Of a stretch of DNA of 53,075 nucleotides, positions 15,501 to 39,000 are shown piece after piece. The stretch is from Tieghemiomyces parasiticus (lineage: Eukaryota; Kickxellomycota; Dimargaritomycetes; Dimargaritales; Dimargaritaceae), in contig JANBPT010000225.1 in NCBI GenBank assembly GCA_027575765.1, forward strand, positions 1 through 53,075. Direction: 5' to 3'. The notes under the pieces are model-generated. The model worked only from the letters and a program-made list of their open reading frames with translations. It did no database searches and was not told the DNA's origin. Both the position numbers and the translations under genes were made by a program. The first letter of the stretch is position 1. Every line of letters starts with the position of its first letter.

Positions 15501-15601
15501 GACGGGTACAGGGCCTTGCCGCTCTCAGACCGCGGGAAGGGTACCGTGCGACCGGGGCGGTTGACAGCCTCTAGAAGGGTGGACTTGCGTTCTTGCGACA
15601 T
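12518..15601 (-). CDS. Glutamine synthetase type III (GSIII/GlnN)
   Basis: Two exons (complement): 15239-15601 and 12518-14419, joined in phase 0 to give 754 residues (GSIII is usually about 700-730). It makes glutamine from glutamate, ammonia and ATP. GSIII hallmarks are clear: T-H-F-T-H-W-F-Q-P near residue 96, E-K-H-D-S-F, F-S-G-S-Q-L-L-Q-S-E-P-D-A-S-S-F-P just after the junction, F-E-A-R-G-Y-T-V-W-D, A-P-A-Q-F-E-V-A-P, and F-A-G-I-N-G-S-G-K-H-C-N-W-S for substrate binding. Across the junction the family alignment is continuous, so no exon is missing. The intron is 819 bases, the longest here, and carries an AC microsatellite. Most studied fungi use the unrelated-length GSII (about 350 residues), so a GSIII is notable. 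No organelle-targeting peptide is evident. Confidence 0.94.
14878..14915 (+). repeat. AC dinucleotide microsatellite in the glutamine synthetase intron
   Basis: Two AC/CA tracts are separated by ggtgaggt inside the 819-base intron. Confidence 0.85.
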
Positions 15602-18015
15602 GGTGATGACTGAGATTCACGAGTGGGGAGTTGGAAGAGGTGAAAGCGTGGGCGGTATGGGAGCAGAAAAGGTGAGCGAGAAAGGTAGGCATGTGGGAGC
15701 AGAGAGCGGCCAAGCGAGTTGGACGTCACGTCGGGGGGCAGGGTGGCGGAGGGAGGGAGCGACTGATCAGCACACCTTCCCGGCCCATAGGCATTTGGAA
15801 CCAGCCAGGGTCACCAGTCACGGTGGTCAGGCTAAAACCGAAGGGCTAATATCCGGACTCGCAAAGTAGCTGTCACCAGGGGAGTCAGGGACATACCTTG
15901 AGAATTGCGGTTGTGATGATGGTGAGTAATGGTTAGACTAAGAGGGGCGGTACTAAACGGGCAGGATATACAGAAAACACTACGAATACAAAAGTGATGT
16001 GATGGAGAGACGGGAGGCACGGGAGGTGGGCCGAATATATAGTCTCGGGCGAAATTGGGGAAGCAATATTGAGGGAGCGGAGAGCAGGGTAGGCAGCGGG
16101 GGCGAAGGCATTGATGGGCTGGCCTACTATGGATGTCGCCGATATGGTAAGCGCATACAGAGATGGAGTGGGCGAGAGCAGAGATAGGCCTAGCCCATTG
16201 TCCAGTTCCAGTGACTGGCCCATGGCAATAGGAAGTCCCCATCCCATTCAGCAGGGCTCAAGATAAAGGTGGGCATCCACTACTGACGCATCAAACCAGA
16301 GGGCGGAGGGGGGGGGGAAGAGTGGGATTATCCTCTCTCTCTCCCCCCTCTCATTATCTCCCTGCATATACAGTCTAGGACCTGGACAGCGGGGACCGGC
16401 GGCATGGAAGGAAGAGGGGTCGCTTGTAAGCACCTGGTGAGGCCAGCATCAGCAGGCCCTCCTGTATCCCACCCCGTCTACTGGTGAGGTTCTTACAGCG
16501 TTCCGGTTGGCGGCTCCCAATGGGAAGGGCCGGGACGACAGCTTCAGATTTCTCCACCACCCGAATGGCTGACTTCCCAAAGCGAGCAGCCCAGGGGAGG
16601 CTCCCTGGCCTGTAACGGCGTGGCCATATTGGTGCGCAGGCCCATGCCGAGCGAGCCAGTGACGTGCTGGAGATTAGGGGGTTATGGACATCTAGAAGAG
16701 CACCGTACGGGCTGGGTCGACAGCCACATATGTCTGGCTGCCCGCTGGCACGCTGTATGCTCGCCCCTTCCCCTACATGCTGGCGAGGGCCCGCTTTCCC
16801 GGCCTTGGGCGATGGCTCTACGGCGCTGTGCCTCGCAGACATTCGCCTGTCGGCAGCCCTCCTTCATGGATAAACGCTGCCCTGTGGCATGCTACGCCCT
16901 GATCGTTATCGGCCGGTCTATCGTGGAAAATAGCGGCGGGAGAGGGTACGCACAGCCTGAGTACCGTTGGGTGTGAGTAGGGTCGGGGGAAAAGATAGTC
17001 CTCATGGGACCTCGCATTTAATCGATGGGACTGCAGGCCGTGATGGCCCGCCGATCCTCCCGGGCCAATCAGCTTGTCCGGATATACCTGGAGATACGGG
17101 TCGTATGCGCACCCTTTGGCTCGTGCGATAAGCAAGCGCATGACCAAAATTGGGTACTGCTGATAAAGGGAGCGGGTGGCTCTGGTATCGACAGTTGTGG
17201 GCGGGTGTGGGCACCGGGGACGTGCCACCCAATACACCCCCGACGTTGCGATAGCCGGGCGATAAGGGTTGGCAGGGCGACGTTTGATTGGCGTGGGGAT
17301 TATGTGGGGGGGGGGAGAGGGTGGTGTATTGGGTAGAATGGGGGGCTAATATCAGGCGCTGAGGCACCAACAGAGAAGTAATCGCAAGTCCAGGACGGCC
17401 ATCACACCACGACCCTCGGTGTTCAGACCCCACATGTTATGACTGGTCCAGCAGACTCAGCACGATAGCAGAATGTCCGCGTGACGGTGGCGGCAACAGT
17501 GGCTTGAGGGGCCGGGGATATCGATTTTCCCTGCCACGACGGCCTGTCTGATCAAGTCCCTTGGGGTGGCCCCACATTGGGCTTAGAGTGGATATTTGCC
17601 AACGACCGGTCCAGGTGGGCCAGGGACGAATCACAGCCAATAGGCACGGGCTCCGCAGCCGAAAGCACACACGGGAAACCGACCATGCCCCCAGCGCCCC
17701 TCAGTTGCTCCACTGACCACGCGTTGCCTACGCGTTCAGTTCGTCAGCATTCACTGTCATACAGAACAAGTCACAGCTTAGCGGTATTTTTCGACCAGAC
17801 CTTGACTTACTCACCACACCGCCCCGGTGTCTGACAGTACATCCCTGTGGTCGGGATAAACCGGGGCGCTCGCAGATATACTCGGATCGTCCCGACCTGT
17901 GTCTAAAAAGGGCGCGGCTGTTTATTAATAGAAAGTAGGGCATGGCAAAGCCCAGGGCTGAATCCCACACGAGCTAATGGGGGTGGGTGGGTGGCTGGAA
18001 ATAGCGCTTAGTGGG
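15602..18015. other. 2.4 kb without recognisable genes
   Basis: This lies upstream of glutamine synthetase and downstream of the GABA transaminase, both on the minus strand. It should contain the glutamine synthetase promoter; a TATATA-type site lies near 16033-16038, about 430 bases upstream of the ATG. G runs occur at 16308-16317 and 17306-17315. ORFs of 118-155 residues overlap on both strands at 16375-16976 but resemble nothing known. Confidence 0.5.
17921..17926 (-). terminator. Possible poly(A) signal of GABA transaminase
   Basis: TTTATT on the plus strand reads AATAAA on the minus strand, about 90 bases after the stop codon of the aminotransferase. Confidence 0.4.
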
Positions 18016-19868
18016 CTAGGCCCAGAACTGCAGGGTCTTATCCACCCGTTCGAGGAAGTGGTCGGCGTGGTGCTTCTCGAAGGTCAGCATGGGACGCAGG
18101 CGGACCGTGACCTCCCCGCACACGCCCATGTTGACACCCAGCTGGCGCATACCACCCACGAAGCGGTTGCGCAGCTCAGGGGTAGCGAAGTCGAATGCCA
18201 GGAAGGTGCCCTCGCCGCGCAGGTTGGTGAAGGTCTTGGGGTGTCTTTCGGCAAGGCTCGCCAGGCCTCGCTTGAGGTGATGGCCGGTCTGCTGGACCAC
18301 CTGGAGCAAGTCGTCCTGCATCACCGTATCGACAATGGCCTTGGCGTGGAGGGCCCGCACGGGGTCTCCCATCCAGGTATTGAAGTTACGGAAGGGCTGG
18401 TCGGGGCGCAGCTTTTGGGTGTGGTAGAACCCAGCCGCCTGGAACTTTTTACTGAAGGTCACGGCGTCGGGGGCGTTGGCCGCATCCAGACCCCACTGCT
18501 CATGGGCCCAAAAGGTGCCGGTGGCGCCCACGCCGGTCTGGACCTCATCGACAATAAGGAGCACGTCGAGACGACGGGTCAAGTCGCGGAGCCCGCGGAA
18601 AAAGGCCGGGCTGGCATGGTTGTCACCGCCTTCACTCTGAATGGGCTCGACTACCACGGCAGCTACAGGGACCGAGCTCTCGCGGATGACGGCCTCGGTG
18701 GCCTCCAGGCAGCGCTGCTCCTCCTGGGCGTTCTCCGCCGTGTAGTCTTCCAGTGGATAGCGGAGCTGCGGAAACGGCGCCTCAGGCCACGGGAATGCTG
18801 GAATGTCCAGTTTGTGGATCGCCTTGGAGCGCGTCGTAGAAAGTGACCCCAACATGCGGCCGTGGAAGGCCTTACGGAAGCTCAGGATGGCCAGGTGGGG
18901 GCTGCCCGGCGGCTGGTTATGCATGCAGGTAGAAGCCTCCTTGGATCCCGCCATTTTGAAGTTTGGGCCGCGGTGTTTGGCTTGGTGGTGCATGAAGGCC
19001 GCCTTGTAGGCCAGCTCGTTGGCGCAGGACCCGCACATGGCTGATGGCAAACGGTAGGGGGAAGGGTGGTGGTGTTGGGTGTGCCCAGGCCCAGGTGAGT
19101 TGGAGTTACATGAAAGCCAGTGGCGCTGATAATAATGATAATGATGAGGTGGGGAGGATCAACATCCGCCAACCGATCCCACCATGGTCCCAAAACAAAG
19201 CGGGGTACCGACGTCACTCGGGCCCCCTTACCCCACTGGCAAAACAGTCACACGCACGTACATGGGGGAGGTGGAGCGGGAATGGAGAGGGGGGGAAGAC
19301 TGCCCACTCAGGCACCCCAACACTATGCCGATAGAGTCGCATCCGGCCATTACTTACTTGTGAAGACCTGGTCAAGGCCGGCGGGGGCCACGCGCATGAA
19401 CGACTCGCGCAGCGTATGGGTCCAGTCCATAGGCGGGAAAACGCCGAGGCAGGACCGATTCGCGAGGGCCGTCAGCATCTCGGGGCTTCGCGAAATCTCC
19501 AGGATGGCCGGGTGATTGTAGCCCAGCGGGATCGAGGCAATTTGGCAGTACACGTCGAGGAACTGGTTACCGTCGGCGTCCGACAGGTAGTTGCCCACAG
19601 ACTTGGTCAGGTCGGTCATAAACATAGCTGCCCGGGGGTCCTGCAGCTGGTCGAGCTCCTCGAGGAGGCTGACCGACTTAGGGCCCGGGATGGTGTCAGT
19701 CTTGACGACCGGGGCTGTCGGTTCGGTCGGGAACCAGGTCGACGAGGCCATGGCCCGGCGGGCTAGGAGGGTCGGAGCCAGGCGGCGGCTGGTCAGGGTG
19801 GTCGTCCAAGCCAGGCGGGAAGTGGCGGCCGGGACTGAAACCAGCCGGCGGGTACCGTTGAGCAGCAT
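18016..19868 (-). CDS. UGA1: 4-aminobutyrate aminotransferase
   Basis: Two exons (complement): 19358-19868 and 18016-19040, joined at a split Thr codon to give 511 residues. It is a class III PLP-dependent enzyme that converts GABA and 2-oxoglutarate to succinic semialdehyde and glutamate. The junction reads G-L-D-Q-V-F-T-T-M-C-G-S-C-A-N-E, typical of the family. Further matches are F-H-G-R-M-L-G-S-L-S-T-T-R-S-K, I-Q-S-E-G-G-D-N-H-A-S, D-E-V-Q-T-G-V-G-A-T-G and the PLP lysine in F-S-K-K (366-369). The first ~40 residues are rich in Arg, Ser, Thr and Leu with no acidic residues, which suggests a mitochondrial presequence. Yeast Uga1 is cytosolic, so mitochondrial location is inferred. A second Met near residue 40 could give a cytosolic form. 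Confidence 0.94.
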
Positions 19869-21532
19869 ACCGTGGAGAAGTGGAGGGTTGGGTCAAGAAA
19901 GGTGGGTGAAAAGAGCGGATAGATAAAAGTACAAGAAGGTTAGGCAACTATGAGTGAAGAGCTGAGAAAGAGGTCAAGTTCTTTTCCCCTAGGGCCAGCG
20001 AAGAGTGTGGACTATAAGAGCGGAGGTCGGTTGGCGGCTCAAGGATCAGGCTGGCCACCGATGAAGTGGGCCGAAAGCCTAAGGGAGGGGTATCCGCAAA
20101 TGGAGAGACTGGTGGCTGCGCTGCGCCCACTCATCCTGTCCCACGCTGATGGGAAACACGGCGGGGTATGGGCGTAGCAACTAAGCCGGTCTAGTAGACG
20201 CTGGTTTCAATTACAACCCCCGCCCTCCCGCCTTCAAGTATGACGACCTCATAGGGTTCCTCTATACGATGCGACAGCCCTACTGGAGGACGGAAATGCT
20301 GGGAATATAATCCAGCAAGGGCTGCACTGGATGTTTTCGAAGATGGTGGGCGGAACGTGAGTTGTAAACTTCCAAAAGCCACCAAGCCTTTCAAAGTAGA
20401 CTGTAGGCTACTGCACTGTTCGCCCATACCAAGCTATTGGGGCAGATTGATCGTCAATCTCAATAACCTCAAAGCAGGTAGAAATAAAAACGCCACCTGC
20501 TTCATCTTTGCTGCTCGCCAAATCGATTACGCATCAGAAGAAATTAGTCAGGTCATACCTGTTGTGCCTCGCCCACCTGACCGGCAGCCAAACTCCTTGC
20601 CGTCGCATTGACCTTCCTTGGTAGGCCTAACCAATATCCAGGTGATGTATTGTTTCTTTCCCGCAAAGCAGATAGAGAGGGGAACTTAGTAGGTATGCCA
20701 GCTCCAGGTCCGCTCGCTAGACGCTATGTTCATTCCATTGGTGCGCTTGGATAGGACTACCAGCCGCCAATGTACAGCACTGAAATCCAGGGTTATCGAA
20801 GGGGTTGTCGGTACCTTCGCTCCCCCAATCACTCCCAGTATCGTGTCCATCCTTACGTCCACACACTTGAGGACTGGTCTGCTTCATTACGCTGATCCGT
20901 CCAATCAGTCAAGAGAGACACAGCGCAGGCGTGACCAAATCGTCCCGCCTAAGTTGCGTCCTTGTCCCATCCCAGGGTAAACAGCAAAATAATAACATAG
21001 CTGAATTTACCCCTTCGGCGCTGCCCTTCTAGGTCCACCGTTCCTTTACTCCAATCTCATGGTAGTGTCACTACTTCCAGCAACGAGTTCCGGTGGTTTA
21101 CATTCCTGCGTTCCAGAACGTATCCGCGGGTTAAGGATCCTGGCAGGGCGTGTGTTGGCCTGGCCCTCCACCTACACGGGATGGAAACTCCGATCCTAGC
21201 GAACCCCCCGTCCGTATCCGTGTTTACCTCTACTGGCAAAAACCGCTGCTGCTTGCAGTATTCTGGTTACCAGATTCGTAAACACGCAGGGGAGGGTGTG
21301 CCCGGCCAGATTTCTAACCGCATACCTTCCAACGACATCCGTTAATCTACACTCATTGTTTTGGCTACGTTGTTTATTATATCCGCTCTCCATTCTCCAA
21401 CTTTGCTATTCCTAATCCTGTATAGTCTATTCGTCCATCTCCCCTGACCTACTCTAGCAGTCAGTCCCACGGGTGTCTCGATTTATTCCCATTGTCATCA
21501 GTGCAAGGCCACTACGTCGTTGATTGCCCACC
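19869..21532. other. Divergent intergenic region, GABA transaminase and MCM7
   Basis: This 1.66 kb lies between the starts of the aminotransferase (-) and MCM7 (+), so both promoters should be here. ORFs do not exceed 84 residues and none is recognisable. Confidence 0.6.
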
Positions 21533-24149
21533 ATGTCTAACCTCCAGCACATCGCGGTGTCAGTGCAGTACGCGTCAGAAATCGGTAAGCTTCACAGTTA
21601 AATTCTGCTTGCGTACCATGTCCGCCGAACTTGCTCGTCGGGCAGCCTCCAACCTTGCGTCACTCGCTACACCGCGGCCAAAACCATCATTTTCCCACTG
21701 CGATATTTCACTTTGACCTGTCCTAAACGTCAACGCCCTATTCTACCACCTGGCCTCCTGCCGCACTCTACCCCCAACCCCTTCAGAAAAAATCAAGGGT
21801 TTCATCAACAAGTTCAGCGCCCCTGCGACGAGCAACGACGACGATACCCTGGCCAGCCCCCCGCCGTCCACTCACAAGTACCTCGACCAGCTGCAGGCCA
21901 TTGCCGATCGGCGCCAGAGCTCCATCACTTTTGATTTGGATGATGTGGCAAAGTTTGACAGCTACGGCGGGGCCCTTTTCCACAATATCACCGCCAACAC
22001 TAAACGCTACGTGGAACTGTTCAGCCAGGCCATCGACGCCCTCATCCCGCCTTCGACCGTGGACATTAGTTACGAGGACGACGTGATCGATGTGGTGCTC
22101 TACCAGCGTCGCCAGCGCGAACTAGCCGCCCAAGCTTCGGCCGATGGAGCTGGATCGACGGAGGCCCAGTATCCGGCTTTGCTGACCAGGCGCTACGCCG
22201 TCTACTTTCGGCCGCCAGCCAACCGCAAGGCTGTGGCGGTGCGCGATGTGACGGGGTCCCACGTGGGCCAACTGGTGACGGTGCGGGGCATCGTGACGCG
22301 GGTCACTGACGTCAAACCCTTCCTGGTGGTGTGTGCCTACAGCTGTGACCAGTGTGGCTACGAAATCTTCCAGGAGGTCACCCAAAAGCAATTCGCACCG
22401 CTCACCGAGTGTCAGTCCCAGCTGTGCAAGAAAAACGACGTTAAGGGCCGCCTGTACATGCAGACCCGCGCCAGCAAGTTCTACCGGTTCCAGGAGGTCA
22501 AGATTCAGGAGCTCACTGACCAGGTCCCCATTGGTGACATCCCGCGCACCATGTCCATCCACCTCTTTGAGGAACTCACCCGCCAGGTCAACCCTGGTGA
22601 CATGATCCACGTGTCGGGCGTCTTTCTGCCGATGCCGTACACCGGGTTCCGCGCCATGCGCGCCGGTCTCTTGTCCGACACCTACATCGAGGCTCAATAT
22701 GTCCACCAGCTCAAGAAGCAGTACACTCAAATGGAGGCCACTCCGGAGGTGCAACGGGCCATCGACGCGCTTGCGGGCGACCCGGACACCTACACCAAGC
22801 TGGCCAATAGCGTGGCCCCCGAGATCTTTGGGCACGAGGACGTCAAGAAGGCCCTCCTGCTCCAGCTGGTGGGCGCTCCCACCAAGTCCACCAACGACGG
22901 CATGAGCATTCGTGGCGACATCAACATTTGCCTGATGGGTGACCCGGGTGTGGCCAAGTCGCAGCTGCTCAAATTCATTACCAAGGTGGCGCCGCGTGGC
23001 GTGTATACCACCGGCCGCGGGTCGTCCGGGGTGGGTCTGACCGCGGCGGTTACCAAGGAGCCCGTGTCGGGCGAGATGATCCTGGAGGGTGGCGCCCTGG
23101 TGCTGGCTGACAACGGGGTCTGCTGCATTGACGAATTCGACAAGATGGACGAGTCGGACCGGACGGCCATCCACGAGGTGATGGAACAGCAGACCATCAG
23201 TATTTCCAAAGCCGGTATCACCACCACGCTCAACGCCCGTACGTCCATCCTAGCCGCCGCCAACCCGGCGTTCGGCCGCTACGACCCCCGTCGTAGCCCA
23301 AGCGAGAACATCAACCTACCTGCGTCCCTCCTATCCCGATTCGACATTTTGTTTCTGATCCTCGACAGCCCCACCTTCGATAACGACCTCCTGCTTGCCC
23401 AGCACGTGGCCTACGTGCACATGCACAACACCCACCCGCCTCTCGGGTTCGGGGTGCTCGACCCGGCCATGATTCGCCACTTTGTCGCCCAGGCCCGCCA
23501 AAAGCGGCCCGTCGTGCGCAAGGAAGTGGCTGACTACGTCGTGAGCGCCTACGTCCAACTCCGTCAGCAGAGCAAGCAGCTCGAGGAGGCCGTCAACGCC
23601 CACTACGCCAAGTCGTCCCGTCATCGTAAGCCCTTCGGTTCAGGCCAGCGTTCGGTTGGGCCTGGTGGTAACGCGGCTGGAGCCGCCACTGCTAACCACG
23701 GGTCCGCCCAGCAGGGTATTGGGCAGATCACTCCGCGTACCCTCCTGGCCGTCCTCCGTCTGGCCCAGGCGCACGCTCGCGTCCGCCTGTCCGATGTGGT
23801 GGAGGAGGCCGATGTGGACGAGGCCCTGCGGCTCATGGACGCCGCCCAACACACGCTGGAGGCCCACGCCCTAGGTGCCGGTGGTAGCGGCGGTGGCGGG
23901 GCCACCGGAACGGCTGGCGGGCCGCGCTCCACCCCTGATGTCATCTTCTCTATCCTCCGCCAGATGGCCCGTAGTGGCGGTCAGCAGCCTACCCTCGAAC
24001 TGCCCTACCGTGCCGTCCTCGAACGGGTCGTCGCCAAGGGCTATAGCGAACAGGACCTTTTGGACGTGGTGCGAGTCTACGAGGACATTGACGTCCTGTT
24101 GCTCAACCAGTCACGTACCAAGATTTCGTTCATTTCGCCACCCGAGTAG
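21533..24149 (+). CDS. MCM7: DNA replication licensing factor MCM7
   Basis: Two exons, 21533-21584 and 21787-24149, give 804 residues. The first exon is 52 bases; its ATG has context CCCACCATG, and the G|AA split codon closes the frame. It is the Mcm7 subunit of the MCM2-7 replicative helicase. Seen: a zinc finger with Cys204, 207, 226 and 231; Walker A G-D-P-G-V-A-K-S (402-409); D-E-F-D (466-469) in C-C-I-D-E-F-D-K-M; and the arginine finger S-R-F-D (Arg535). M-E-Q-Q-T-I-S-I-S-K-A-G and G-R-G-S-S-G-V-G-L-T-A-A-V are core MCM motifs. The N-terminal Cys finger spacing and the run Y-T-G-F-R-A-M-R-A-G-L-L-S-D-T-Y point to MCM7 among paralogues. Two Gly/Ser/Ala-rich inserts interrupt the C-terminal winged-helix region (near 23630-23720 and 23870-23930). 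Confidence 0.96.
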
Positions 24150-24997
24150 ACCAATGTCCGTGTGTTGATGGGTTAGATTTTAGTGACCGACTTTGGCATT
24201 CCTTTAAGTATTCCACCCACATGCTGCGATTATTGTGTTACTGGCTGTATTTACGCTTTTTTTCCCCTCACTTTTTTTGGGGGGGTACAATCGAATTCTA
24301 CCACTGAGTTTAGTTATCCCAGACTTGTGTCTCTATCCATACCTTTGTCCCCCCTAATTTCACCGTCTGGCAACTTTTCAAACATTTAATAAGAGTAATT
24401 ATATATATATATACCCCTTGTGCTGATAATAGTCAAGTGTTGCTAGGGGCCGATTAAATGCCTGACGATAGTGACGAGCCTAGATCTTGGCTGGTTTTTT
24501 TCTACTCACCTCGCTACGTTTCCGATTTTATCTTGCCGAACATTCCTCAACCACGTAGGAGGTAGAGGTGGTGACTTGGAATTCCCTATAGGGTAGACTC
24601 TGGCTTTCATACAGCCGCCGGCTTAGAAGTCTGGCTGCCGCATTGACGCTTAATATCCGCTGTGATACATGCCCTGTGCTCAAGCTGGAGTGTGCACATA
24701 GGGGCGCATAGTGAGGAGCAAGTGTGGGGAGCCGTTAGAGCCCTCGATACACGCTTATCTTATGTTTCGTAACCCATGGCTAACTATATATGGCCTTTTT
24801 TTTCCATTCCCATTTGGAAACACCTCTATTATTTCCAGCATTCCCAACTCGCACTAAAGCTGGCAATTTCTCCCCCACCCGAAGACGCCCTACCTTAAAT
24901 TGCTCTAGAGAAATTGTCCACCCGCATTCCGTCACCCTGACGACCCGTTCATTCCGTTCCTGGACATCCCTCACGCACACGCAGGCACACGACGACC
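24150..24997. other. Intergenic between MCM7 and the TPP1-like gene
   Basis: This is AT-rich, with T runs, a TA microsatellite at 24399-24413, and presumably the MCM7 3' UTR and the downstream promoter. I see no gene. Confidence 0.6.
24399..24413 (+). repeat. TA microsatellite
   Basis: Alternating TA run of about 15 bases in the MCM7 3' flank. Confidence 0.8.
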
Positions 24998-27900
24998 ATG
25001 CGGCAGCCCATGGTCCGACCGTGGCTGGTGGACACTTTCCTCCAAGCTACGGTTCGACTTGGTGAGGAGCTCACCCGCAAGCAACGTGTCCAGCTGATCG
25101 CCTTCCACACCTATCGCACTCCCTCACAGGGCGAGCCAACTCTCGTTCATGGCCAAATATCGGACACGCGGCACTGGATTCCGACGGTGTTTTCAGCGGA
25201 CTGTGTTCGCCATTTTGAAGACGAGCAGGAACGAAGCCTCACGTCCGTGGCCGGCGGTGTCGTGATTCTTCAGCAGTATAAATTTCAGGCTCGACCGGAA
25301 TTGACGGGTAATGCCGAGAGCGGGTACGGGTGCCATTTGTGGGTCGACCGGATCGCGTATATGGGACTTGACGGGTCGACTGTCATCGGGAACCCGGCAT
25401 TGTTCATTGATAATCCCGAAGCCAGAGCTAAGACTATCACGCTGGTGCAGGCGCCCATGGCCGACCACAAAGGCACACACATGTCGGGTACGTACCGTGG
25501 CAGATAATATAGAGAGGTCCAGGACTGACCGGGAGAGGAGGGGGAGCCTCTCACCTTTTACTAACTGGAGAGGCCATTTTCTAACCTTATGCTGTCCTTC
25601 ACCCTACATCCGTCTTTCCCCGGTACAGGGGCCCTAACAAAGAAGGTCTATCCGACGGATGATGCCCAACCTGCCAAGCCTTCGTCCTCATGGCACGCGC
25701 CCGCGTGCCAATCGACGGCTCAAAATGACAACGTAGGTTAACTCGATAGCGACAAAACTATGTAACTCGGAGCTAGTCGTTAAGCGCGTGGGCGACAGTT
25801 ACCGGACCACGGTCGATGCCATTCCTTATCGTTTGATGGATCCAGTTCGCTTGGTAACCTTTCACCTCGGCCCCTTCTTCACCACCATATACTCTGTTCA
25901 TCCCGAACCCGGCCCCATCCCCCAGTCTCTGACTACGCCCAGCGTGGCGGAGCTGCTACCAACCGAGGATCAGTTGGCACTTCTCGATGAAGTACCAGGT
26001 GAGTGGGCCATCCAAGAATAATTGCAACTGAATCGGCCCTGATGTACAGCCCCTCTATAAGCCTTCCTTATAGTTTTTGACCCACCCATTGTGGCTCCAT
26101 TCACTTACTTACATCTCCTTTTTCCATACGTTGTATTAGGCTGGGATGAAGAGGGATCTGACATCGGAGAATCCACCAATGCTAGGACCCCACCGCCTGG
26201 GGACATAGCGGTGCCCATTCCGCTGGCCGGCACGTCCAAGCCATCACCTCAGATAACCTCACCGCTTTCACGGCCCCAGTCCCTCCCATTGGTACGTCTC
26301 GGTGTAGTTCAGCTACCGTCCGTCTAAGCTGAGTAATCATGGCACCATGAACCCTAATCAACGTCCTGCTTAACTCCTGCCCACCTGCTCTCCTATCCGC
26401 CACCCCTTTTCCTTTACCGATGTAGCGACTGTCTCCCAGAGAATCCGAATCCGAGCCCTCTCTCCGTGCGGTCGACCGCTACGCTGCCGAGTTTCGGCAG
26501 ACCATCAACACGCTGCCAAACTACTACACCGACATATTGGACAGCTTGACCTCTCGCATGGAGGCACTGACTAAGATACCAGGCACTTCTGCTTCCCGCG
26601 ATACCATGCCACTGCCGACGATGGTTGGACAGGTCGGCGACTCCGATGCCGAATCTGAGCATTTGGACGATATCCCTTGCGGGCAGCAGGTCAGGGATAC
26701 CCACTACGACCTCACTTCACAAGACGATTCTGCCGGCTTCAGCTTTCAAACCTACGCCGCCAGTTTTCAGTCGACTCAGCCCTCGACAAGGTAGGTCTCT
26801 CTTGACATGACATACTGTCCTCCGCCTGATCGGTAGTATCGGTATGACATCAACCGACTGGCTCACCCGAAACACTGGCTGCCTATTTTACCCCCCCCCC
26901 AGTCAAATCCCGTTGCCTAGACCAGTTACCGTACCTTCCGTCCCTGTACCGGCCTTCGCCACGGAAGACCCAGAGAGTCCCCCGGGCTGGGATACCCCCT
27001 CCCCATCCCCAGCCGTCCCGAACGGCCAACCCGTGCGTGACTCTCAACCTACAATTGGGCCGGATCCCACCACGCAGGGCCCAAGTGCCCTAGCCTATTT
27101 GATACCCAGCCAAGATTCCATGGTAGACGACGTCACAGTATCGGTCACGAATGGCCCAACCGACCCGTTCCCACCGGATAATACGGATTATAATCACGAT
27201 CCTGACCACGAAGACGATATGCCCTGCTCTCCAGATCTGTTTAGATCGTCAGAACCAAACCTTACGGCAGATGGGTCGCGTCATTTGGTCAGCTCGACCA
27301 CCTCGCCATACTTGCAAACCTACGCGTCCTCCCTCTCTAATGACGGTTGGGGCCGTTCGTCCTCGCCGGACACCACATCGTCGCAAGCATCTGTCGTCAA
27401 CGTCTCCTTCCAGACCCTCGTCCGACTCCAGCGAGCACTGTCGCCCACCTGTGATCTCGCATCGCAACCTGCCGGATCGTCTAGGGTAAATATGGAGTTG
27501 AGGGTGGCAGAAATCCCCCCGATCTGTGGTTAGAAGACTAAGGGACTATCAATCGTGCTAAAATCAAGTGCAGGTATCTCCACATTTATAGTGGTGCTAA
27601 GACACAATAATTTCTCACCATACCACGCCTTTGCTTCCCCTGCACTATACCTACCTAGGCACCGTCGCCGGCCCGCCAGTCCTTCCCTCTGCAGGTCGGC
27701 GCCGGTTTACCGCCCCGCGCCCATGGAAAGCCCCCACATCCCAATACTCCGGAGGATTCGGTGGAGGTCTCCGAGGCGGTGTCTTCCGAGGAGATTTCTG
27801 TTGTGGGCATTGGCCGGGCGCCCTCGGAACCCTTGCTATCGAGGATGGGGGCGGCGACTTCAACCCCTTGGCGACGTCGACCTCGAGCGTCTCCCGCAAT

Positions 27901-28711
27901 AACCGTCAACTCCCATTCCACCTCGCCGATGGCCATCAGTATCCCGTCCAGCCCTAACTCGCCCGTTCAAAATTCGCCCGCGGGGGGAGGCTACCAAACC
28001 GATGACACGGTTGAAGTCTCCACCGATGACGAAACGTTCAATAGGGGACTCCGGCTCGTCACGTCCACCCTGTATAGCGATCCGAATCGGGCCCCAATCG
28101 TATCGACCCTGGCCTCAGCACCAACTAAGGACCATCGATCTGGCCCACCACAGCGGCCAGGCCGGACCGGAGTCACCGTCCGACTCCGTCGTGAACCGCT
28201 GCGGCGGGTCGCCGTGCTATCCCATGAGAACAGTAATGATGATGATATCGACGTCCCTTCTCAGCAACTCCCAAAACGCCGCAAGCAACGCGCGGCGCGC
28301 ATCACACCAACGACCGTCCGACCCACCCGGAAACGGCGCGGTGTTCCCGCGAAGCCGGTGATCACCGTCACAACCAGCCCCATAAATCCACCCCTTTCAG
28401 CTCCACCTCCCGACCCTGCACCTAGTGTCGCCAACTCGAGCTTCTCCACCTTACGCCGGCTGCACCAGTCAAGGTCACACGCCATTCACTCACTGGCCAC
28501 CCGCCCACTAGACGACGTACTGGCCGAACCTACACGCGGCCCATTGTGCCGGCCTAATCCAGTGTCGCCCCGGAAACGCAGGCGAGTCACGCCGCCCTCG
28601 GACTTTGAACCCCAGCAGGCTTTGGGACTTCAGGACTCTTCTCCCGAGCTCTTGGCCCCACACTTACCTCGGCCCGACGTCAGTGTGGATTTCAACAGTT
28701 GGGACTTTTAA
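24998..28711 (+). CDS. TPP1/ACD (Tpz1)-like shelterin protein with N-terminal OB fold
   Basis: Seven-exon model: 24998-25487, 25629-25732, 25785-25998, 26140-26291, 26426-26790, 26903-27485, 27695-28711, about 974 residues. The exon 2/3 junction is the weak point (a 52-base intron with a poor acceptor). Residues about 5-125 match the OB fold of TPP1: R-P-W-L at the start, then I-S-D-x-x-H-W-I, G-G-V-V-I-L-Q-Q, and H-L-W-V-D-R-I. Human TPP1 has R-P-W-I, V-S-D-x-x-H-S-V, G-R-L-L-L-L-Q-D and Y-L-Q-V-D-R-F in the same order. TPP1 binds POT1 and recruits telomerase. The rest is Ser/Pro/Thr-rich with a helical stretch in exon 5 and two basic, nuclear-localisation-like clusters in exon 7 (P-K-R-R-K and P-R-K-R-R-R). 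A second ATG at 25010 has better context. Family assignment is from remembered sequence only. Confidence 0.75.
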
Positions 28712-29779
28712 ATGGGGCGGCGGGGCATCCGTGCGGACGGACCTAGCATCCCATGTATAATAAAGTAGCGATTAGGCATAGACGACTAGAACTGCTGCAC
28801 TCAAAAGCAAAGGACTATAATCAGGGGCTGGGTAAATCCCCGGACATTCCGCTCCTTCCCGCTCTGTCAGAGTCGCCATTTGAGACTTGTGAAACAGCAA
28901 GTCTAATTTTGAGTAGATCGATCCCTACTGCCCCTGATGGTCGCAGAGGCCCGGTAGAACGCTGTGTCCGGCAGGATCCAGTCAAATCCCACAGAGCCCC
29001 TGAGACGCCGGTCCCAAGTATCACTTCTCGCTAGCTCGCACGCTGTCCGCCGATATACCCTCTCTTGCAGCCAGGATGATTCAATCGGCAGAGTTCAGCC
29101 TCCGCCCGGCGCCACCCCGGACGGGCTGCGAGGCTATTCTTTCAAGGAAGGTCTCGCACTTCTCCTACCAGCAACTCCGGTAGGTACCAACTAGGCCAGA
29201 AACTCGCTTGCTCTCCAAACGGGTCCTGAAGGAGAGGCCCCAGTCCAATCCATACGTCCAAGAGCGCAAATTAGTCAGGGTTGCGCAGGGGGGGCACCCT
29301 AGATTTATCACGCGAGTGGGTGCGCTCGGTGATTGATGACCTGGACTGAAGAGGCTGTTGAGGCTGAGCTTACCAGGAGCCGACGGAGGATTGAAAGTTG
29401 AGGCTATAAGTATAGCGCAGTGTGCTCAATCCGAACGCGAAAGGGCACCGCGTCCTCAGTATATATATTTGTTGATTTTCATGACCCATAGTCCCGGCCT
29501 TAGTGGAGTCGCATTTATCACCGACCGCATTCCGAACCCCACATAGGTTTGCACGGATACTTGACCGTACTCCGCCATTGTCCCTGCGAAAGGGTTTAAT
29601 AGGACCTTGGTTTTCGGATAGTTCCTACGTGTGGCCTTGAATCAAGGTACCACGCCTACCCGCTACGCAATTGATTTAAACTGAAGGGCTAACCATCACC
29701 CTCAGACTCCCATCCGCGCAGCTGGCCCTCGTATCTTCCCAGTACTTCAAAATTGATGCTCTACACGTAGTCGTCGGCA
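28712..29779. other. Intergenic between the TPP1-like gene and CDH1
   Basis: This holds the 3' flank of the TPP1-like gene and presumably the promoter of the APC/C activator. ORFs stay below 95 residues and none is recognisable. Confidence 0.6.
28759..28764 (+). terminator. Possible poly(A) signal of the TPP1-like gene
   Basis: AATAAA lies 48 bases after the stop codon. This supports the stop at 28709-28711 as the true gene end. Confidence 0.45.
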
Positions 29780-31741
29780 ATGATGAATCCTGAGGGGCCC
29801 AATCTCTTCCACGCCGGTGTCCCCCAGCCGCCGGGCCCTCCCAGTACGCCGCGTCGCTTCGGTCCCAATGCGCCACTCGAAGATACTTCCCAGCTGGCCC
29901 CGCCGACGCCGCATTCGCTTACCCCGTCGAGCACATCACGTAAACGACCGGCCCAGTACACCTATGGCGACCGGTAAGTTGACCACGGCGCGTGCAGCTC
30001 GATGAGCGGTCAAGGATTCACCTGCGAAAGGGGAGCGGTGTCGAGTTCGCCTTCGACAAATTTCTAATGTGGCGGTATTATGGGCAACTCTCTCCTCACC
30101 ATCACCATTCATATTTCTAGTTTTGTCCCCAGCCGCAGTGGGCGCAACTTACTAGCCGAATTCACGCTAGCCTATGAAACCCCGTCTGTGAAGCGACTCC
30201 GCACCGAGTGCTACACCATGGACGAAGAGCAGAGTAAGTAGGAGCAGATAAACCTTTGCTCACTTCTTACCGGCCCTTCTCTTCAAGGTAGAGATACCGT
30301 CCGTACCGACGACTGCAGCTAACATCCAACTCAATACACTTCCTCCTGACTTTACAACGTACAACGCCGCGGCAATGGCTTAGAAATAGCCAACTTACGG
30401 TACCAGGCCGCCTTGCATGAGGAGCTAATCGGGAGCTCCACGCCCCAGCACCGCCAAAATCACATGTCCAAGGCGTCGATCGGGACTAGCCCTCGCCGTC
30501 CACCACGCGTCCGTATCGGGCCCATAATTGATGAGCCACCACCGTCCCTCGCCTACTCAACTCCACGACTGCTTAATTTCCGGTCAACCCCAACTGTCCA
30601 ACCGGCCAGCCCGGCCCGTCCCACGGCTTACCACTCCCCGCACCACCGGGTCTACACGCAAAGCCCCGTGAGCCTCCGGACGCAGCGTCTCTTAGACCAT
30701 GGCGGACCGGATCGACGACGGCGAGTGCTGGACCGGCACCCTTACAAGGTTTTGGACGCGCCCAATATTCGCGATGATTACTACCTGCATTTGCTAGACT
30801 GGTCGGCACGCAATGTGGTGGCAGTGGCCCTGGGACCCGAGGTGTACTTGTGGAAGGCTGCCAGCGAGGAGGTCGGAGCGCTTGGCGAGGGGCAGGGCGG
30901 GCCCACAGGGCTAATAGGGGGCCCCGTGACCGGGGTGGCATGGTGTCCCCTAGGGGACCGGCTGGCCATCGGGGACGAACTGGGCCGTCTCGCTCTGTGG
31001 GACTACGCCACGCACCGCCGAGCTGCGCTCCCGCCCGTCATGACAGCTGGACTCTGCCACGCCGACCGTATTGGAGTGATCGCCTTCCGGGACGTCCACA
31101 GCTACCTCACGGGGAGCCGTGACCAGGCCGTGCGCGAATTTGACGTCCGGGTAGGGCCCGGACGTATTGTCCGGCAGTACCCAGGACACCAGCAAGAAGT
31201 GTGCGGGCTGGCGTGCGATCACGTCACGGGTCACCAGTTCGTTAGCGGCGGCAATGAGAACCGGATTCTGGTGTGGGATGTCCGGCAGCCCGATCACCCC
31301 CTCTGGCAGTGGTCGGACCACACCGCGGCGGTGCGAGCACTGGCCTGGCACCCGTCGGAAGCCCACGTACTTGCCAGCGGCGGTGGTACGACAGATAAGA
31401 CGGTTCGAACCTGGAATACGCGAACGGGCCGGCTGGTGCGGACGATAGACACGGCATCTCAGGTCTGCAACGTGGTGTGGTCACGACACACGTCCGAATT
31501 GCTGACCACCCACGGGTTCTCCCAACACCATATCGCACTCTGGGACTATCCGTCGTTCCAGCGCGTTGCGACCCTCCGCGGTCACCGGTCCCGCGTGCTT
31601 AACTGTGCCCTGGCTCCCGACGGGGAGACTGTCGTTACGGCCGCGGCTGACGAGACCCTCCGGTTCTGGCGTGTGTTTCCTAAACCAACCATTACACCCA
31701 CCAGTAGTGGAATACTAGAACGGGCCATCCGGATCCGCTAG
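29780..31741 (+). CDS. CDH1: APC/C activator, CDH1/Fizzy-related family
   Basis: Three exons: 29780-29973, 30121-30233, 30390-31741, giving 552 residues. The first junction reconstitutes the C-box D-R-F-V-P-S-R at residues 64-70, which docks the activator on the anaphase-promoting complex. K-V-L-D-A-P at about 222 opens the seven-bladed WD40 propeller that recognises D-box and KEN degrons. G-H-Q-Q-E-V-C-G-L, L-A-S-G-G-G-T-T-D-K, S-Q-V-C-N-V-V-W and D-E-T-L-R-F-W are family signatures. The protein ends in Ile-Arg, the IR tail that binds Cdc27. The C-box and S-R-S-G-R-N following it favour Cdh1 over Cdc20. A meiotic paralogue (Ama1 or Mfr1 type) remains possible because blades 2-3 are diverged. 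A TAG lies in frame just upstream of the two adjacent ATG codons. Confidence 0.9.
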
Positions 31742-33014
31742 GTACTCCTACTTCGTAGGTTGTACTATGGCTATGCTCTGGGCGACTCTCTACTGTACAT
31801 CTATTTTCCCTTGTAACCAACAATATAAACTGCCATACGGTGTAGATCCTGGACGGCGGGCCACGCCAGCTGGTGAGGGCCTTTGGAAGACGACCTAGGG
31901 TCTGCTGGGCCCTTGTAACCTCGATAAAGGCAGGTGGGTTCTTAGCGAGGTGCTTTACGTTTGCTTGGCCACGCGTCAGTGCGCATACCACGGAAGCCTG
32001 GCACCACCCCTGCCCTTGTGGGTGGTGGATTCGATGATCTGCTGCGCGTGTAGCCTCCGTGGTCGGAGGGGGGGGGGCGTCCCCTACGGTTACCAGCTTG
32101 CATGGGCCACGGTGCAGTACATTGCCTACGCCTAGAGTATTGGACAGATAGAAAACCCAGGGAAGGCGGGAATTGCAGGCCCGTCGAACAACACGGCCCT
32201 ATCATACGGGCCTTTCCTGTCACATCATTACTGGGAATGGCGAGGCCAGTACCCCTACTTACTGTCATTACCCGTCCCGCGGATCGTATTCTACAGAGGC
32301 CCCCGGAACATCACATTCGTGTTTACGGGTGTGAAGCCACCGAACTCCTGGCTACCCTGTGCAGTGGAAAAGATATGGTCACCACATCTGCTCACAACGT
32401 TCACTTTGGAAGAAAAAAAAAGGCCATATTCTCAATAAAAAATCGATGCCTAAAGGAGGGTTGCTTACTCTCCACCACCACATCCTCTACATTGCCAACT
32501 GCCAGTAGAAACCTCCCAGCCGCTACCACGCTGTTCGCAACGACAACCTAGTTGCCTGGTAAACCTTCGCCGTCCTATTTGACGGTCGTCAATACCAGCA
32601 CTACCTACCGTAGGATGCACCCTATCCTCCACGACTTATTGTGGCCACCCAACTGTAGCCGTAGGTCTGCCAGGATACTATACCTCTCCCCGACCTCGCG
32701 GGTGGCGCGCGACGAGTTCCTGGCGGATTCTCCCGGCCGCGTCGCTGCACCATCTCCGTTACAGCATAACCTTCACCCATTGCGCTTCAGCATACCCTTT
32801 GCCTGCCCTCCGTGCCACTTATCGGCAGTCCTTCCAGCCTAACCCCATCCGTGTCGCCACTCTTCCACTTGCCACCCCGGCCGCTGCTACCATCTCTCCA
32901 CTCACTTGTTTCCCACCTCGCCATATTATTCCTTACCAATCCCGACCCCCCCCCCCCGACCTGCGTTAGGCAACTGATTCCGCACCCTCGTTGCATCCCC
33001 TCTCCACCTTCGCC
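31742..33014. other. Intergenic upstream of TOR
   Basis: This holds the 3' flank of CDH1 and the TOR promoter and leader. A G run lies at 32068-32077 and a C run at 32946-32957. The 300 bases before the TOR ATG are strongly pyrimidine-rich. I see no gene. Confidence 0.6.
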
Positions 33015-36000
33015 ATGGTTGCCCCCGCGGCCCTCCCGGCCACCCACGGGATCAACTCATTCCTCCTGATGCTCCGCAGCCGGTAAGTTACAGTGGCGGA
33101 GGCCTAACGCAGCCTGCCTGGTTGACCGTGCATCCCCGTCAAACCAGTGCCAACGAGACCCCCCGGTCGCTAACAACGCCTCCGTCCTTCCCTCCTTTCC
33201 ACCCCGCTGCCAACCAGTGACTACGCCGTCCGGCGCAAGGCAATGCAGGAGCTGACGGTCATACTTGAGGCCTGGCGAACGGAATCGTACTCCTCCAATG
33301 CTCGCGGTCTCAACGAATTCAAGCACCAGTTCTCTGAAATGTCCAATAGCACCGATCCTTCGGTCAAGCTGGTCGGGGCTGCTGGCCTCGAAACTGTGAT
33401 TCCGCTCTTTATCGACGAGGATTCGACTGTCCTCGCTCGCTACAGCCATATCCTACTAAAACTATTGCAGTCCGATGATATCGCAGTCGTTCGCCACGCC
33501 GTCCGCGCCAGTGTTATGCTCTTACAGATCGCCGGGTCCCTGACCCCCAGTATGCTTGAAGCTACCCTGACCAGTGCTATCGAATGGCTACAAGGAGAAC
33601 GCCTCGATACCCGCCGACACGCCGCCGTGCTCCTGCTCCGGGAGATTGCCACCAAAATGCCCAACAGTGTGTACTCGTACGTTAATCAGGCTCTGCAGGC
33701 CATGTGGGGGACCCTCCGCGACAGCAAACCCTCGGTCCGCATGGACACCAGTGAAGCACTGGGGGCTCTCTTGGACATCGTAGAGCGTCGTGAGACGCCC
33801 TTTCGCCCCACCCTACTTACTGGCTTGTACGATGAGGCCCAGAACGGCATCAAGATGCAGACGCTAGAGTGCCTCCACAGTTCCCTCCTCGTGTTCCAAC
33901 AGCTGCTCAAACACAGCGGCATGTTCATGAGCGCCCACTATCGCGAGGTGGCCACCCTGGTCTACCGGGTCCGGGACCACCGCGAATTACTGATTCGGCA
34001 GGCCGCCATCCGGCTCATGGAGATCCTGGCCCAGTACTCCCCCAGCGACTTTCGGCGACCATTGGACTTTAGTGCAGCTGGCGGAGGCGGTTCCCTACTC
34101 CCTGGCGCCACCGGAGACGAGCCAGCCATGCAGCTCTTTGTGACCTACCTTCTCGGCCAGCTTAAGAAAGAGAAGGAACGGCCCGCGGCGTACCGCGCCC
34201 TCGGTGAGATCGCCTTGCAGGAACGTAACGACTTTCTACCCTACGTATCGCCCACCGTCCAGCAGATCAAGGAGTTTTTGGCCCCCAAGTCCAAGCACCG
34301 AGCAGACCCTGACACGGAGGAGGCAATTATGCAGTGTATCTCCCACTTCGCGCAGGCCCTAGGCCCCGCAATGGCCAAGTACCTACACGATAGCTTGGAC
34401 CTCCTGTTTGTATCGGGTTTGACCCCGAACCTGCAGCGCGCCCTCAATCAAATCGCCCTCAACGTGAACCAGATGCTACCAGCCGTTCAGGCCCGGCTCT
34501 TGGACGAACTATCTTGGCTCTTGGCTGGCCAGGCCTACGTGGCCGCGGGAGCTCCCGCCCGACTCACAACCGGAGCCGGGATGGCCGGTAGCGCCACCGC
34601 CCACGGTCCTGCCGCAGGAGGCTCTGCCGCAGTTGTCAACGGTGGACACTACCCAGCCACAGGAGCAGCCCGAGCCCACGAGCGGCCGACTGAGGGGCGG
34701 CTGATCCTGGCGCTGGAGACGCTAGGGGAGTTTAATTTCCAGCCGCACAACCTGACCGAGTTTGTCTGCGACCACGTCCTACCCTATATCGAGAGTGACA
34801 GCGTTGACGTTCAGATGGCGGCTATCACCGCGGTCAACGCCGTATTCGATAAGGACAAAATTTGTCAGCAGACCAGCCAACACGCGTATCAAATCGTCAA
34901 CGAGGTTCTCCAGGTGCTACTCAGCGTGGCGGTAGCCGATAGTGACGCGCTGGTACGTGCCCGCGCCCTGAAAGACTTGACCCGGAATTTTGACCATCAG
35001 TTGGCCCAGTCCGACAACATCCGGATGTTCAGCTTGGCTCTCAACGACGAGACGGTGGAGGTGAAGCTCCTGGCCGTGGGCATTTTGGGGCGCCTAGTGT
35101 CCCGCAACCCAGCCCAAGTTCTCCCGTTCCTCCGCCGCGCCTTGCTCCAGGTGCTCACCGAACTGGAGTGCGCTCCGCACGCCAAGGTCCGGGAAGAGTG
35201 CTGTCGGTCACTGGATGAGCTGGCCCGTTCTGCACCGCAGTGGATCCGAGCCTACATCGTCCCGATCTATAAGAGTCTATTCCCCCGCATCAAGGACCCC
35301 AACCCAGCCGTGTCGGTGGCCGCCCTGGACGCTCTCGCCGCGGTGGCACGTGCTGGCGGGGAGGACCTGAGGAACTACCTGGGCCAGATCATGCCCGTTC
35401 TGACCGAGATCCTGGGCGATCAGATTGCACCACAACGTCGCGTCCCGGCCCTGCGCGTGCTCACCTACCTGGGCACCTACGCGGGCGTGGTCATCACGCC
35501 CTACACCGAGTACCCCAGCCTCATGAACTACCTGATTGCCATCTTGAAGCACGAGAAAGGGGACGAACTGCGGCAGGAGGCCCTCCGTGCCCTCGGGACC
35601 CTCGGCGCCATCGACCCGTACCAGCATCACAGCACCGTACAGAACCACGCTGTCGAGGCCGGCCGCCCGGCCACGGGGCCCGGGTCGGAGACCGACGGCG
35701 CCAGCGACGAATGGCTGGCGACCTCCTCACTTTTTACCGATGACTACGACCTGACCATCGTCATCAACGCCCTGGTCAAGATTTTAGCCGACCCCAGCCT
35801 GGCCGGCCACCACAGCGTCGTTATTCAGGCCTTAATGCACCTATTCACCACCCTTACCCATCGCTGCTTCCGTTTCCTAGGCAAAATTGTGCCGGCCTTC
35901 ACCCACGAGATGAAGGTGTGCCCCACCACGGTTCTGGACTTCTACTTTGAACAGCTGTCGATCCTGATCCTCATTTGCAAGCAAAATATTCGCCCCCACC

Positions 36001-39000
36001 TGGACGACATGTTCGCCCTGTTTGACCTACACTGGGGATTGGGGCCCGGCATCCAGGTGACTATCACGGGAATGTTGGAAGCCATCTCCCGGGCCCTCGA
36101 GGGTGACTTCCGGGAATACCTGCCCAAGGTGCTCCCGGCCCTTATGGAGGCTGCCGAGTCTGATACTTCCGAGCGACGCCCCCTCACCCTCAAGGTTATG
36201 CACGCCGTGGCCACCTTCGGCACCAACATCGAGGAGTACATCCACTTTGTCATGCCCGTGTTCATCCGCATCATCGAACGGGCCGACACCCCGGCCACGA
36301 TCCGGCGTCGCGCCCTGCACACGAGTTGCTTAGTCGCCGAGACGGTCAACTGCCGTGGCTTTGCCTCCCGCCTAGTGCACTGTGTCACACGACTCCTGGC
36401 AGCCCCCAACCAGTACGATCACGACCGGGACGTAACGGACGCGGCCCTGGACGCCCTGTGCGTCATGATTTGTCAGCTCCAGCAGGACTACCTCCCCTTC
36501 ATCTCGGTCGTTGACAAGGTGATCCAGCGTCACAAGATCCCAGCGGCCAAGTACAACCTCCACCTCGGCAAACTGGTCAACAACGAACCCCTACCGCGCT
36601 CCGTCACCATCCCCAACCTTGACCAGCTCGTACACCGGCGCGGGTCCCGTACCTCGCTGCTGGAGAGCGGAGCCGCTGCGGCGGCCGCTGCGGCCACTTC
36701 GAGCGGAGGCAAGCAGCCTGTCAACCTAGCGGTCCTGCGCGACCGGTGCGACGTTAGCCCATGGTCCACCCGCGAGGATTGGATTAACTGGATGCGCAAG
36801 TTCAACCTTTTTCTGCTCGAGGAGTCGCCCAACGCCGCTCTGCGGTCGTGCTCCACCCTAGCCACCCAATATCCACCACTGGCCCGCGACCTTTTCAACG
36901 TCGGCTTCATGACCATGTGGCTGGCTACGGGCGAGACGGACCAGGGCCAACTGGTCACCGCAATGCACACGGCGCTACGCAACCCCGAGGCCCCCAACGA
37001 AATTGTGCAGGCAGTGCTCAACCTGGCCGAGTTTATGGAGCACGACGACAAGGCCATTCAGATCGACATTCGGTCCCTGGCCGAGTACGCCATGCGGTCT
37101 AATGCCTTCGCCAAGGCCCTCCACTTCAGTGAACTCACGTTCCTGATGAGCTCCAGTGCCGAGAACCTAGACCGGTTGATCCGTGCTTACACGCAGCTCA
37201 ACCAGCACGACGCCGCCACGGGTCTGATCAAGTTTGCCACTAAATTGCTCCCGGACCTGACCTTGCAAAACAAGTGGTTCGAGCGGCTGGAGCGGTGGGG
37301 CGAGGCCCTGACGTTCTACGAGGACCAGGAGGCGCAGCGCCCCGACGACATGGAGGTCCTGTTGGGCAAGATGCGCTGCCTCCACCACATGTGCGAATGG
37401 CACAAGGTCACCGCCCAGGTCGAGGAAGTGTGGGATCGAGTCACCGAAGAGTACCGGCCACGGGTGGCTCTACTGGCAGCCGGAGCCGCCTGGGGCAGTG
37501 GCGAGCTGGACAAAATCGACCAGTACCTCCGCATCATCGACAAGGACTCGGCCGATCAGTGCTTCTTCCGCGCGGTCCTGGCCGTCAATCGCCAGCAGGA
37601 CGATGCACGCGCTCTCATCCGAGAGACCCGCCGCCACATCGACCGCGACATGACCGGCCTGGACGAAGGGTACGGCCGGTCCTACGGCTCGGTGGTGCGT
37701 ATCCAGATGCTGACCGAACTCGAGGAAATCCTGGAGTACCGCGCCTGCGAGGGCCAGCCCAAGCGCCAAGACGAGATCCGCGACACCTGGGATAAACGCC
37801 TGCAGGGCGTTTCACGCGAGATTGACGTGTGGCAGAAGCTGCTACGGGTCCGCGCGACGGTGTTACCCCCCAGCGAGGACATGGGGGTGTGGTTGGAGTT
37901 CGCCGAACTGTGCCGGGAAAGTGGGAACCTTGGCTTTGCGGAGAACACCATCGCCTCCATCCTCGGGGTGGATCCGATGCACCTGAACGCCGACATGATC
38001 TACGAGGCCCCTTGTCCCGTGGTGTACGCTTACCTCGAGGTGCTCTGGGCCCGCGATGAGCAGCGCGACGTGGTATACCACTTCCTCGACAGCTATTCCA
38101 AACAGCTCCGGTACCAGTACAACCGGGAAAAGCGGTACGAAGACCTACACTTAGCGGCCGAGGAGTATCTCTGCAACCTACCCGATAATGCCGCCGACGT
38201 GGAGGGGATCCTGGCCCGGTTTCACCTCAAAAAGGGTGAATGGTACGGCGAACTACGCGAGGAGCGTGACCGTGCCTACTACGACCATGTTATCAGCTGC
38301 TACAGCTTCGCCACCCTCATGACGCCGAACTGGTACAACGCCTGGCACGCCTGGGCCCAAGCCAACTACGAGGTGGTTACGGCCGCCGAGAAGGACGCTC
38401 GCGCCGTCACGCCGGACATGCTGGTCACGTATATCGTGCCGGCCGTCGAGGGCTTCGCCAAGTCCATTGCTCTGTCGTCGGGCAGTACCCTGCAGGACAC
38501 GCTGCGCTTCCTGGCCTTGCTCTTCAACTATGGGTACCAGGCCGAGGTCCAGACCGCCCTGGCCCGTGAGGTGCAGAACGTACCTACCGAGACCTGGCTG
38601 CAGGTGATCCCTCAGCTTATTGCCCGGATCCACGTGCCGTCCACGGGCGTACGCCATCTCATCCAGCAGATCTTGGCCGCTCTGGGCAAGGTTTATCCGC
38701 AGGCCCTTCTCTTCTCGCTGATTGTGGCCACTAAATCGGAGAGTGCCCCTCGGCGCCAGCTGGCTACGGAGACCATGAACAAGCTCAAGCTGTACTCGGA
38801 GCGGCTGGTCACCGAGGCCGAGCTGGTCGGCCGGGAGTTGATCCGTACCGCCGTGCTGTGGGCCGAGCTCTGGCAGGCGGCCGTGGAGGAGGCCTCCCGG
38901 CAGTACTTGACCTATCATAACCTCAACGCCATGTACGAGATCCTGCGGCACCACCATCAGACTCTGGCCGCGGGTCCCACCACCGTCAAGGAGACCCAGT

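Follow-up and report, generated by a model that had tools for sequence, protein, structure and literature searches.

The locus and its gene model

The window, that is, the whole 53,075-nucleotide stretch of DNA analysed here, corresponds to one contig (C505) of the 1363 that make up the 46.5-Mb genome assembly of Tieghemiomyces parasiticus (Kickxellomycota, Dimargaritales). On its forward strand, downstream of an MCM7 frame in the same orientation (21717–24149), lies a multi-exon gene whose first exon encodes a domain of the TPP1/Est3 type. Public databases hold a predicted protein for this gene (IWQ60_004589) and another for its allele (IWQ60_006529). Several other genes were recognized in the window: a type III glutamine synthetase (12521–14683, reverse strand), identified from its N-terminal and C-terminal domains; a CDC20/Fizzy WD40 protein (30350–31738, forward) downstream of the TPP1-type gene; a TOR kinase (33174–40448, forward), encoded by an uninterrupted 2425-residue frame with FAT, mTOR, FRB, PI3/PI4 kinase, and FATC domains; a gamma-tubulin complex component (44459–46855, reverse); a class I E/Q tRNA synthetase (48060–50405, reverse); and an eIF2B-epsilon-type LbH protein (51477–52742, forward).

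The TPP1-type gene was modelled as seven phase-consistent exons that together encode 939 residues. The features of the model are as follows:

24998..25487, + strand: exon 1, encoding the TPP1/Est3-type domain (residues 1–163; Pfam PF10341 at residues 28–133; donor GTACGT)
25214..25231, + strand: acidic stretch FEDEQE (residues 73–78), read from the sequence and lying within the stretch aligned with 2m9v; candidate counterpart of the TEL patch
25629..25732, + strand: exon 2, a fast-evolving linker present in both public models
25926..25998, + strand: exon 3, a short exon after the OB-type domain, with an acceptor shared with both public models; candidate POT1-binding segment
26140..26291, + strand: exon 4, with phase-consistent GT..AG borders; missing from both public models
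26426..26790, + strand: exon 5, with phase-consistent borders; one of its peptides is found in both public models
26903..27485, + strand: exon 6, Ser/Pro-rich, with phase-consistent borders; one of its peptides is found in one public model only, that of the other allele
27659..28711, + strand: exon 7 and the stop codon, an open frame to the stop; its C-terminus is common to both public models
28676..28708, + strand: C-terminal end DVSVDFNSWDF, including W937, identical across haplotypes; candidate Poz1/TIN2-binding tail

Public models exist for both alleles, with 615 and 753 residues (a difference of 138), and it is likely that one or both are mis-spliced. Our model agrees with both of them at the joints between exons 1 and 2 and between exons 2 and 3, in part of exon 5, and at the C-terminus; the public models, which both omit exon 4, differ from each other across exon 6, which makes the middle exons of our model tentative. 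A 40-nt version of intron 2 with a GAG acceptor was dropped in favour of the intron at 25733–25925 found in both public models, because the intervening stretch, when read as coding, looks unconstrained (4 synonymous and 9 nonsynonymous differences). Two insertions set the other haplotype apart from the window: one of 23 bases in intron 5 near 26892, by eye a partial duplication, and one of 6 bases in exon 6 near 27011.

Family assignment of the N-terminal domain

Exon 1 spans 490 nt, from the ATG at 24998 to the donor immediately after 25487, and its product of 163 residues contains four motifs: RPWL (7–10), ISDTRH (54–59), GGVVILQ (86–92), and HLWVDRI (113–119). The preliminary description had listed four such motifs as following the order and spacing of human TPP1, and the sequence scan bore out their presence in that order within residues 7–119. 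All four co-occur only in exon 1; elsewhere in the window, the six reading frames hold a single stray RPWL and a single stray VSDPRH. The succession RPW, SDxxH, GxVVILQ, HLxVDR is one that we take to fit TPP1.

Compared with Pfam-A, the exon 1 product matched a sole family at E ≤10, namely PF10341 (TPP1), with an E-value of 3.6e-6 and 27.3 bits against a cut-off of 26.5 (residues 28–133). The margin over the cut-off is small, at less than 1 bit, and the annotated full-length proteins of the two alleles score 23.8 and 25.3 bits, below 26.5 (E 4.5e-5 and 1.5e-5, respectively). None of 10 control sequences (one reversed and nine shuffled versions of the exon 1 product) matched PF10341 at E ≤10; three of the 10 weakly matched other Pfam families, the best at E 0.043. 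A six-frame search of the genome placed PF10341 at two sites, with 28.7 and 26.8 bits, both above the cut-off, and the same search of 14 control genomes yielded no match. The two sites are alleles on the two haplotype contigs, indicating one orthologue per haplotype.

Searches against NCBIfam, a library built for prokaryotes, returned no family for the TPP1-type protein at E ≤1, and the single protein matched none of the solved-structure sequences at E ≤10. A profile built from both alleles gave two matches at E ≤10 among 177,635 solved-structure sequences: a farnesyltransferase subunit ranked first (E 1.2) and yeast Est3, 2m9v, ranked second (E 1.6). The Est3 alignment covers residues 50–87, spanning the SDxxH motif and the FS-CV-FE stretch after it; not significant alone, this match agrees with Pfam as to the family. 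AlphaFold2 reached a pLDDT of 30.0 on residues 1–163 as a single sequence and of 34.7 on 135 residues together with the allele (two sequences), both too low for fold assignment; from its family membership, the N-terminal domain would be expected to adopt an OB fold. Taken together, the PF10341 match, the genome search, and the absence of any such match among the 10 controls support membership of the TPP1/Tpz1 family in an early fungus, as originally proposed from the letters of this stretch, and orthology of the gene with TPP1/Tpz1 is well supported at the sequence level.

The public record already bears a PF10341 tag, which thus pre-existed in the databases, together with a UniRef name that starts with “Telomere replication prot”. 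A description of TPP1 in Kickxellomycota was not found among the titles and abstract openings covered, a range that takes in few subscription journals. Protein searches for relatives in other species gave none (0 of 33 candidates in one search, 2 of 414 in another, and 1 of 98 in a third), the matches being the protein itself and its allele; the query behind the 2 of 414 kept the extra intron-2 stretch, which lies outside the scored region.

Divergence between haplotypes

The second haplotype is represented by contig C693, which is colinear with the window contig and 94.9% identical to it across the 20 kb compared (window positions 15381–35322). The two haplotypes were assembled as separate contigs, and matches to TPP1, POT1, TERT, and Rap1_C likewise occur in pairs.

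Comparison of the two alleles revealed a marked partition of the protein. Residues 1–140 differ by 7 synonymous and 1 nonsynonymous substitutions (per-site ratio 0.05, from 8 differences only), as compared with 48 synonymous and 7 nonsynonymous in MCM7 (55 differences); the domain is thus under purifying selection close to that of MCM7, albeit on small counts. Residues 141–198 show 5 synonymous and 12 nonsynonymous differences (ratio 0.77), residues 199–222, encoded by exon 3, show one of each, and residues 223–939 show 43 and 49, respectively (ratio 0.41). The final 41 codons, with 2 synonymous differences and 1 nonsynonymous, look constrained. The domain, judged from few differences, looks conserved and functional, and the tail behind it evolves faster, as would be expected for TPP1.

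Telomere proteins elsewhere in the genome

A POT1 candidate was detected in both haplotypes, where the genome search matched PF02765 at 33.5 and 28.9 bits (the second rising to 29.7 with its neighbours) against a cut-off of 29. Within the open frame, the first OB domain (OB1) scores 31.9 bits by the same family. The exon downstream of it carries a CxxC-x13-CxxC set in both alleles and weakly matches the POT1A OB family (PF25507, E 0.0049, 17.1 bits, cut-off 27). When POT1 was compared with solved structures, “Protection of telomeres protein 1” ranked second at E 0.56, which is not significant; the downstream exon and the Rap1 frame gave nothing related among the solved structures.

Telomerase reverse transcriptase (TERT) occupies one open reading frame, 1291 residues long (locus L023, 3051–6923, reverse strand). 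Its RNA-binding domain was matched at E 2.8e-34 and its reverse transcriptase domain above the cut-off of that family. The TEN domain was matched weakly (E 7.4e-4; 20.2 bits, below the cut-off of 25), and a C-terminal match likewise fell below its cut-off. The single open frame is useful for placing the T. parasiticus lineage.

For Rap1, the genome search yielded 25.9 bits for Rap1_C in both haplotypes (cut-off 24.2), and the whole frame scored 23.0 bits (E 8.5e-5), under that cut-off; no BRCT or Myb part was found in the frame. The domain is probably a genuine Rap1 C-terminus, though its score is borderline. Rap1_C matches on six further contigs (C113, C687, C568, C621, C599, and C710) were rejected because they overlap strong Myb matches, and those on C599 and C710 reach the cut-off only with in-frame neighbours.

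The search for duplex-binding and bridging partners was less productive. The TRF dimerisation domain (PF08558) had no match in the genome and none in any control genome either, so that its absence is not shown; the same applies to TIN2, for which PF14973 (TINF2_N) gave no genome match and only a bacterial match below the cut-off among the controls. A first telobox pattern had no match (backwards control, 1), nor did a second, which likewise does not show absence. With one mismatch allowed, the telobox was matched 11 times versus 13 for the backwards control, i.e., at chance level, and none of the 10 loci read out of these 11 (L025 being left out) is Myb-like by eye. No telobox was found in 70 Myb loci drawn from 126 Myb matches (30, plus 40 chosen from the rest, with weak partial matches and many second alleles left out). 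A looser telobox pattern gave one match, which is SANT-like by eye. The repeat (TTAGGG)4 does not occur in the assembly, which may only mean that chromosome ends are absent from it.

These results bear on the further suggestion of the preliminary description that this fungus has an animal-like shelterin, for which a check of the genome for partner proteins had been advised. The sequences support this in part only: POT1, TERT, and a borderline Rap1_C are encoded in the genome, and TRF/Taz1 and TIN2/Poz1 (the latter searched with the TIN2 family PF14973) were not found, in searches that cannot show absence. One could imagine that the Kickxellomycota shelterin keeps an ancestral, animal-like set of TPP1, zinc-type POT1, and Rap1, and that its duplex anchor, tethering Rap1 and TPP1 to the chromosome, is a different, undiscovered protein or a remodelled Myb acting on a non-TTAGGG repeat; we consider this doubtful. 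A non-TRF binder would have precedent, since duplex telomere binders can be swapped in fungi, as the available part of one study indicates (PMC7952879).

Proposed function and alternative readings

We propose that the gene belongs to the TPP1/Tpz1 family, which its sequence matches, and that its product is likely the shelterin bridge joining POT1 to telomerase, a reading to which we assign a probability of roughly 0.85. POT1 would sit on the single-stranded telomere end, and the TPP1-type protein would link it to telomerase and so deliver the enzyme to chromosome ends, a role comparable to that of TPP1 in animals and Tpz1 in fission yeast. Three contacts are proposed for it, modelled on those of the fission yeast and human proteins as described in four sources available in part (PMC4936895; PMC7338525; PMC9333443; PMC4199508). 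First, a surface of the OB-type domain, for which the region around FEDEQE is a candidate, may contact the TEN domain of TERT. The TEL-patch region is negative in human TPP1 and S. cerevisiae Est3 and positive in Hansenula Est3 (PMC7338525), and the key residues of the Tpz1 TEL patch are Arg81 and Ile77 (PMC4936895); acidity is thus a weak guide to the patch. Second, the short segment after the OB-type domain, encoded by exon 3, may bind the zinc-type OB3 of POT1, just as Pot1 OB3 binds Tpz1 via a short segment following the OB domain (PMC9333443). Third, the tryptophan-bearing C-terminus may bind a TIN2/Poz1-like partner, so far not found; the position of DVSVDFNSWDF recalls the Tpz1 tail at 486–508, which includes W498 and I501 (PMC4199508). 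Fission yeast Tpz1 also has an SWSSS motif, according to the accessible portion of PMC6686008, and the 939-residue model holds no exact counterpart of it.

Alternatively, the protein could be an Est3-type telomerase subunit, acting inside the telomerase particle rather than as a shelterin subunit that binds POT1. Est3 (2m9v) was the only related solved structure to appear, and the truncated UniRef name was taken as the Est3 family name because 2m9v is titled “Telomere replication protein EST3”. A POT1 gene in the same genome, followed by an exon with zinc-type cysteines and a weak POT1A OB match, argues against such a role, given that OB3 of Pot1 is the Tpz1 binder (PMC9333443), as does the tail, some 780 residues long, with signs of constraint over its final 41 codons. 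Some Candida-group Est3 proteins carry large extensions (PMC7338525), so length alone is not decisive; we regard an Est3-type subunit as quite unlikely.

It is considerably less probable that another OB-fold protein, e.g., a relative of Ten1, Stn1, or RPA2, matches the TPP1 profile via the shared fold. The Pfam margin for PF10341 is small enough to invite the idea, and PMC9119445, which was available in part, cites a view by which RPA2, STN1, and TPP1 could be paralogues of ancient origin. Neither any other Pfam family at E ≤10 nor any NCBIfam family at E ≤1 (in that prokaryote-oriented library) emerged for the domain in its place. The motif order in exon 1, moreover, fits TPP1. A chance open frame or decaying copy, which the differing public models (615 versus 753 residues) and the splicing uncertainty they imply might suggest, is barely credible, given that exon 1 is open in both alleles, that the domain and MCM7 show similar purifying selection, and that our model shares exons 1–3, the C-terminus, and a portion of exon 5 with both public ones.

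The reading of the gene as a TPP1/Tpz1-type bridge matters because the spread of TPP1 across the fungal tree is poorly known, given its very fast evolution. The presence of TPP1, POT1, TERT, and likely Rap1 in Kickxellomycota would support a POT1-TPP1 half of shelterin in the common fungal ancestor; if so, budding yeast would have lost this half later. The gene would also allow the POT1-TPP1 contact to be probed at a great evolutionary distance from fission yeast and Ustilago, and it turns the missing duplex binder into a concrete question.

Comparison with known systems

The closest parallels are TPP1/ACD of animals and Tpz1 of fission yeast. Like these, the T. parasiticus protein has an N-terminal domain matching PF10341 and a long, faster-evolving C-terminal part, and its genome also encodes POT1, TERT, and a Rap1 domain of borderline score. 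The systems differ in that the TRF/Taz1 and TIN2/Poz1 partners were not found in the T. parasiticus searches. They differ also in length. Human TPP1 has approximately 460–540 residues. Our model comprises 939 residues, as compared with 508 for Tpz1 (PMC4199508).

The relationship to Est3 is of another kind, as the likeness consists of the weak 2m9v alignment (residues 50–87, E 1.6), whereas here a long tail follows the domain and POT1 is encoded in the genome. We take Est3 to be in the same Pfam-level family as TPP1 (PF10341). It is mostly a lone small OB domain that serves as a telomerase subunit and is not known to work with a POT1-type partner system.

A final comparison concerns the POT1 of fungi, on which one study, available in part, covers the Zoopagomycota; TPP1 is not listed for these lineages in that portion of it (PMC9119445). 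The POT1 homologues of Zoopagomycota are described there as having three OB folds, and OB3 as conserved across fungal phyla, with its zinc residues lost only in ascomycetes (PMC9119445). The T. parasiticus POT1 candidate shares this zinc-type cysteine set.
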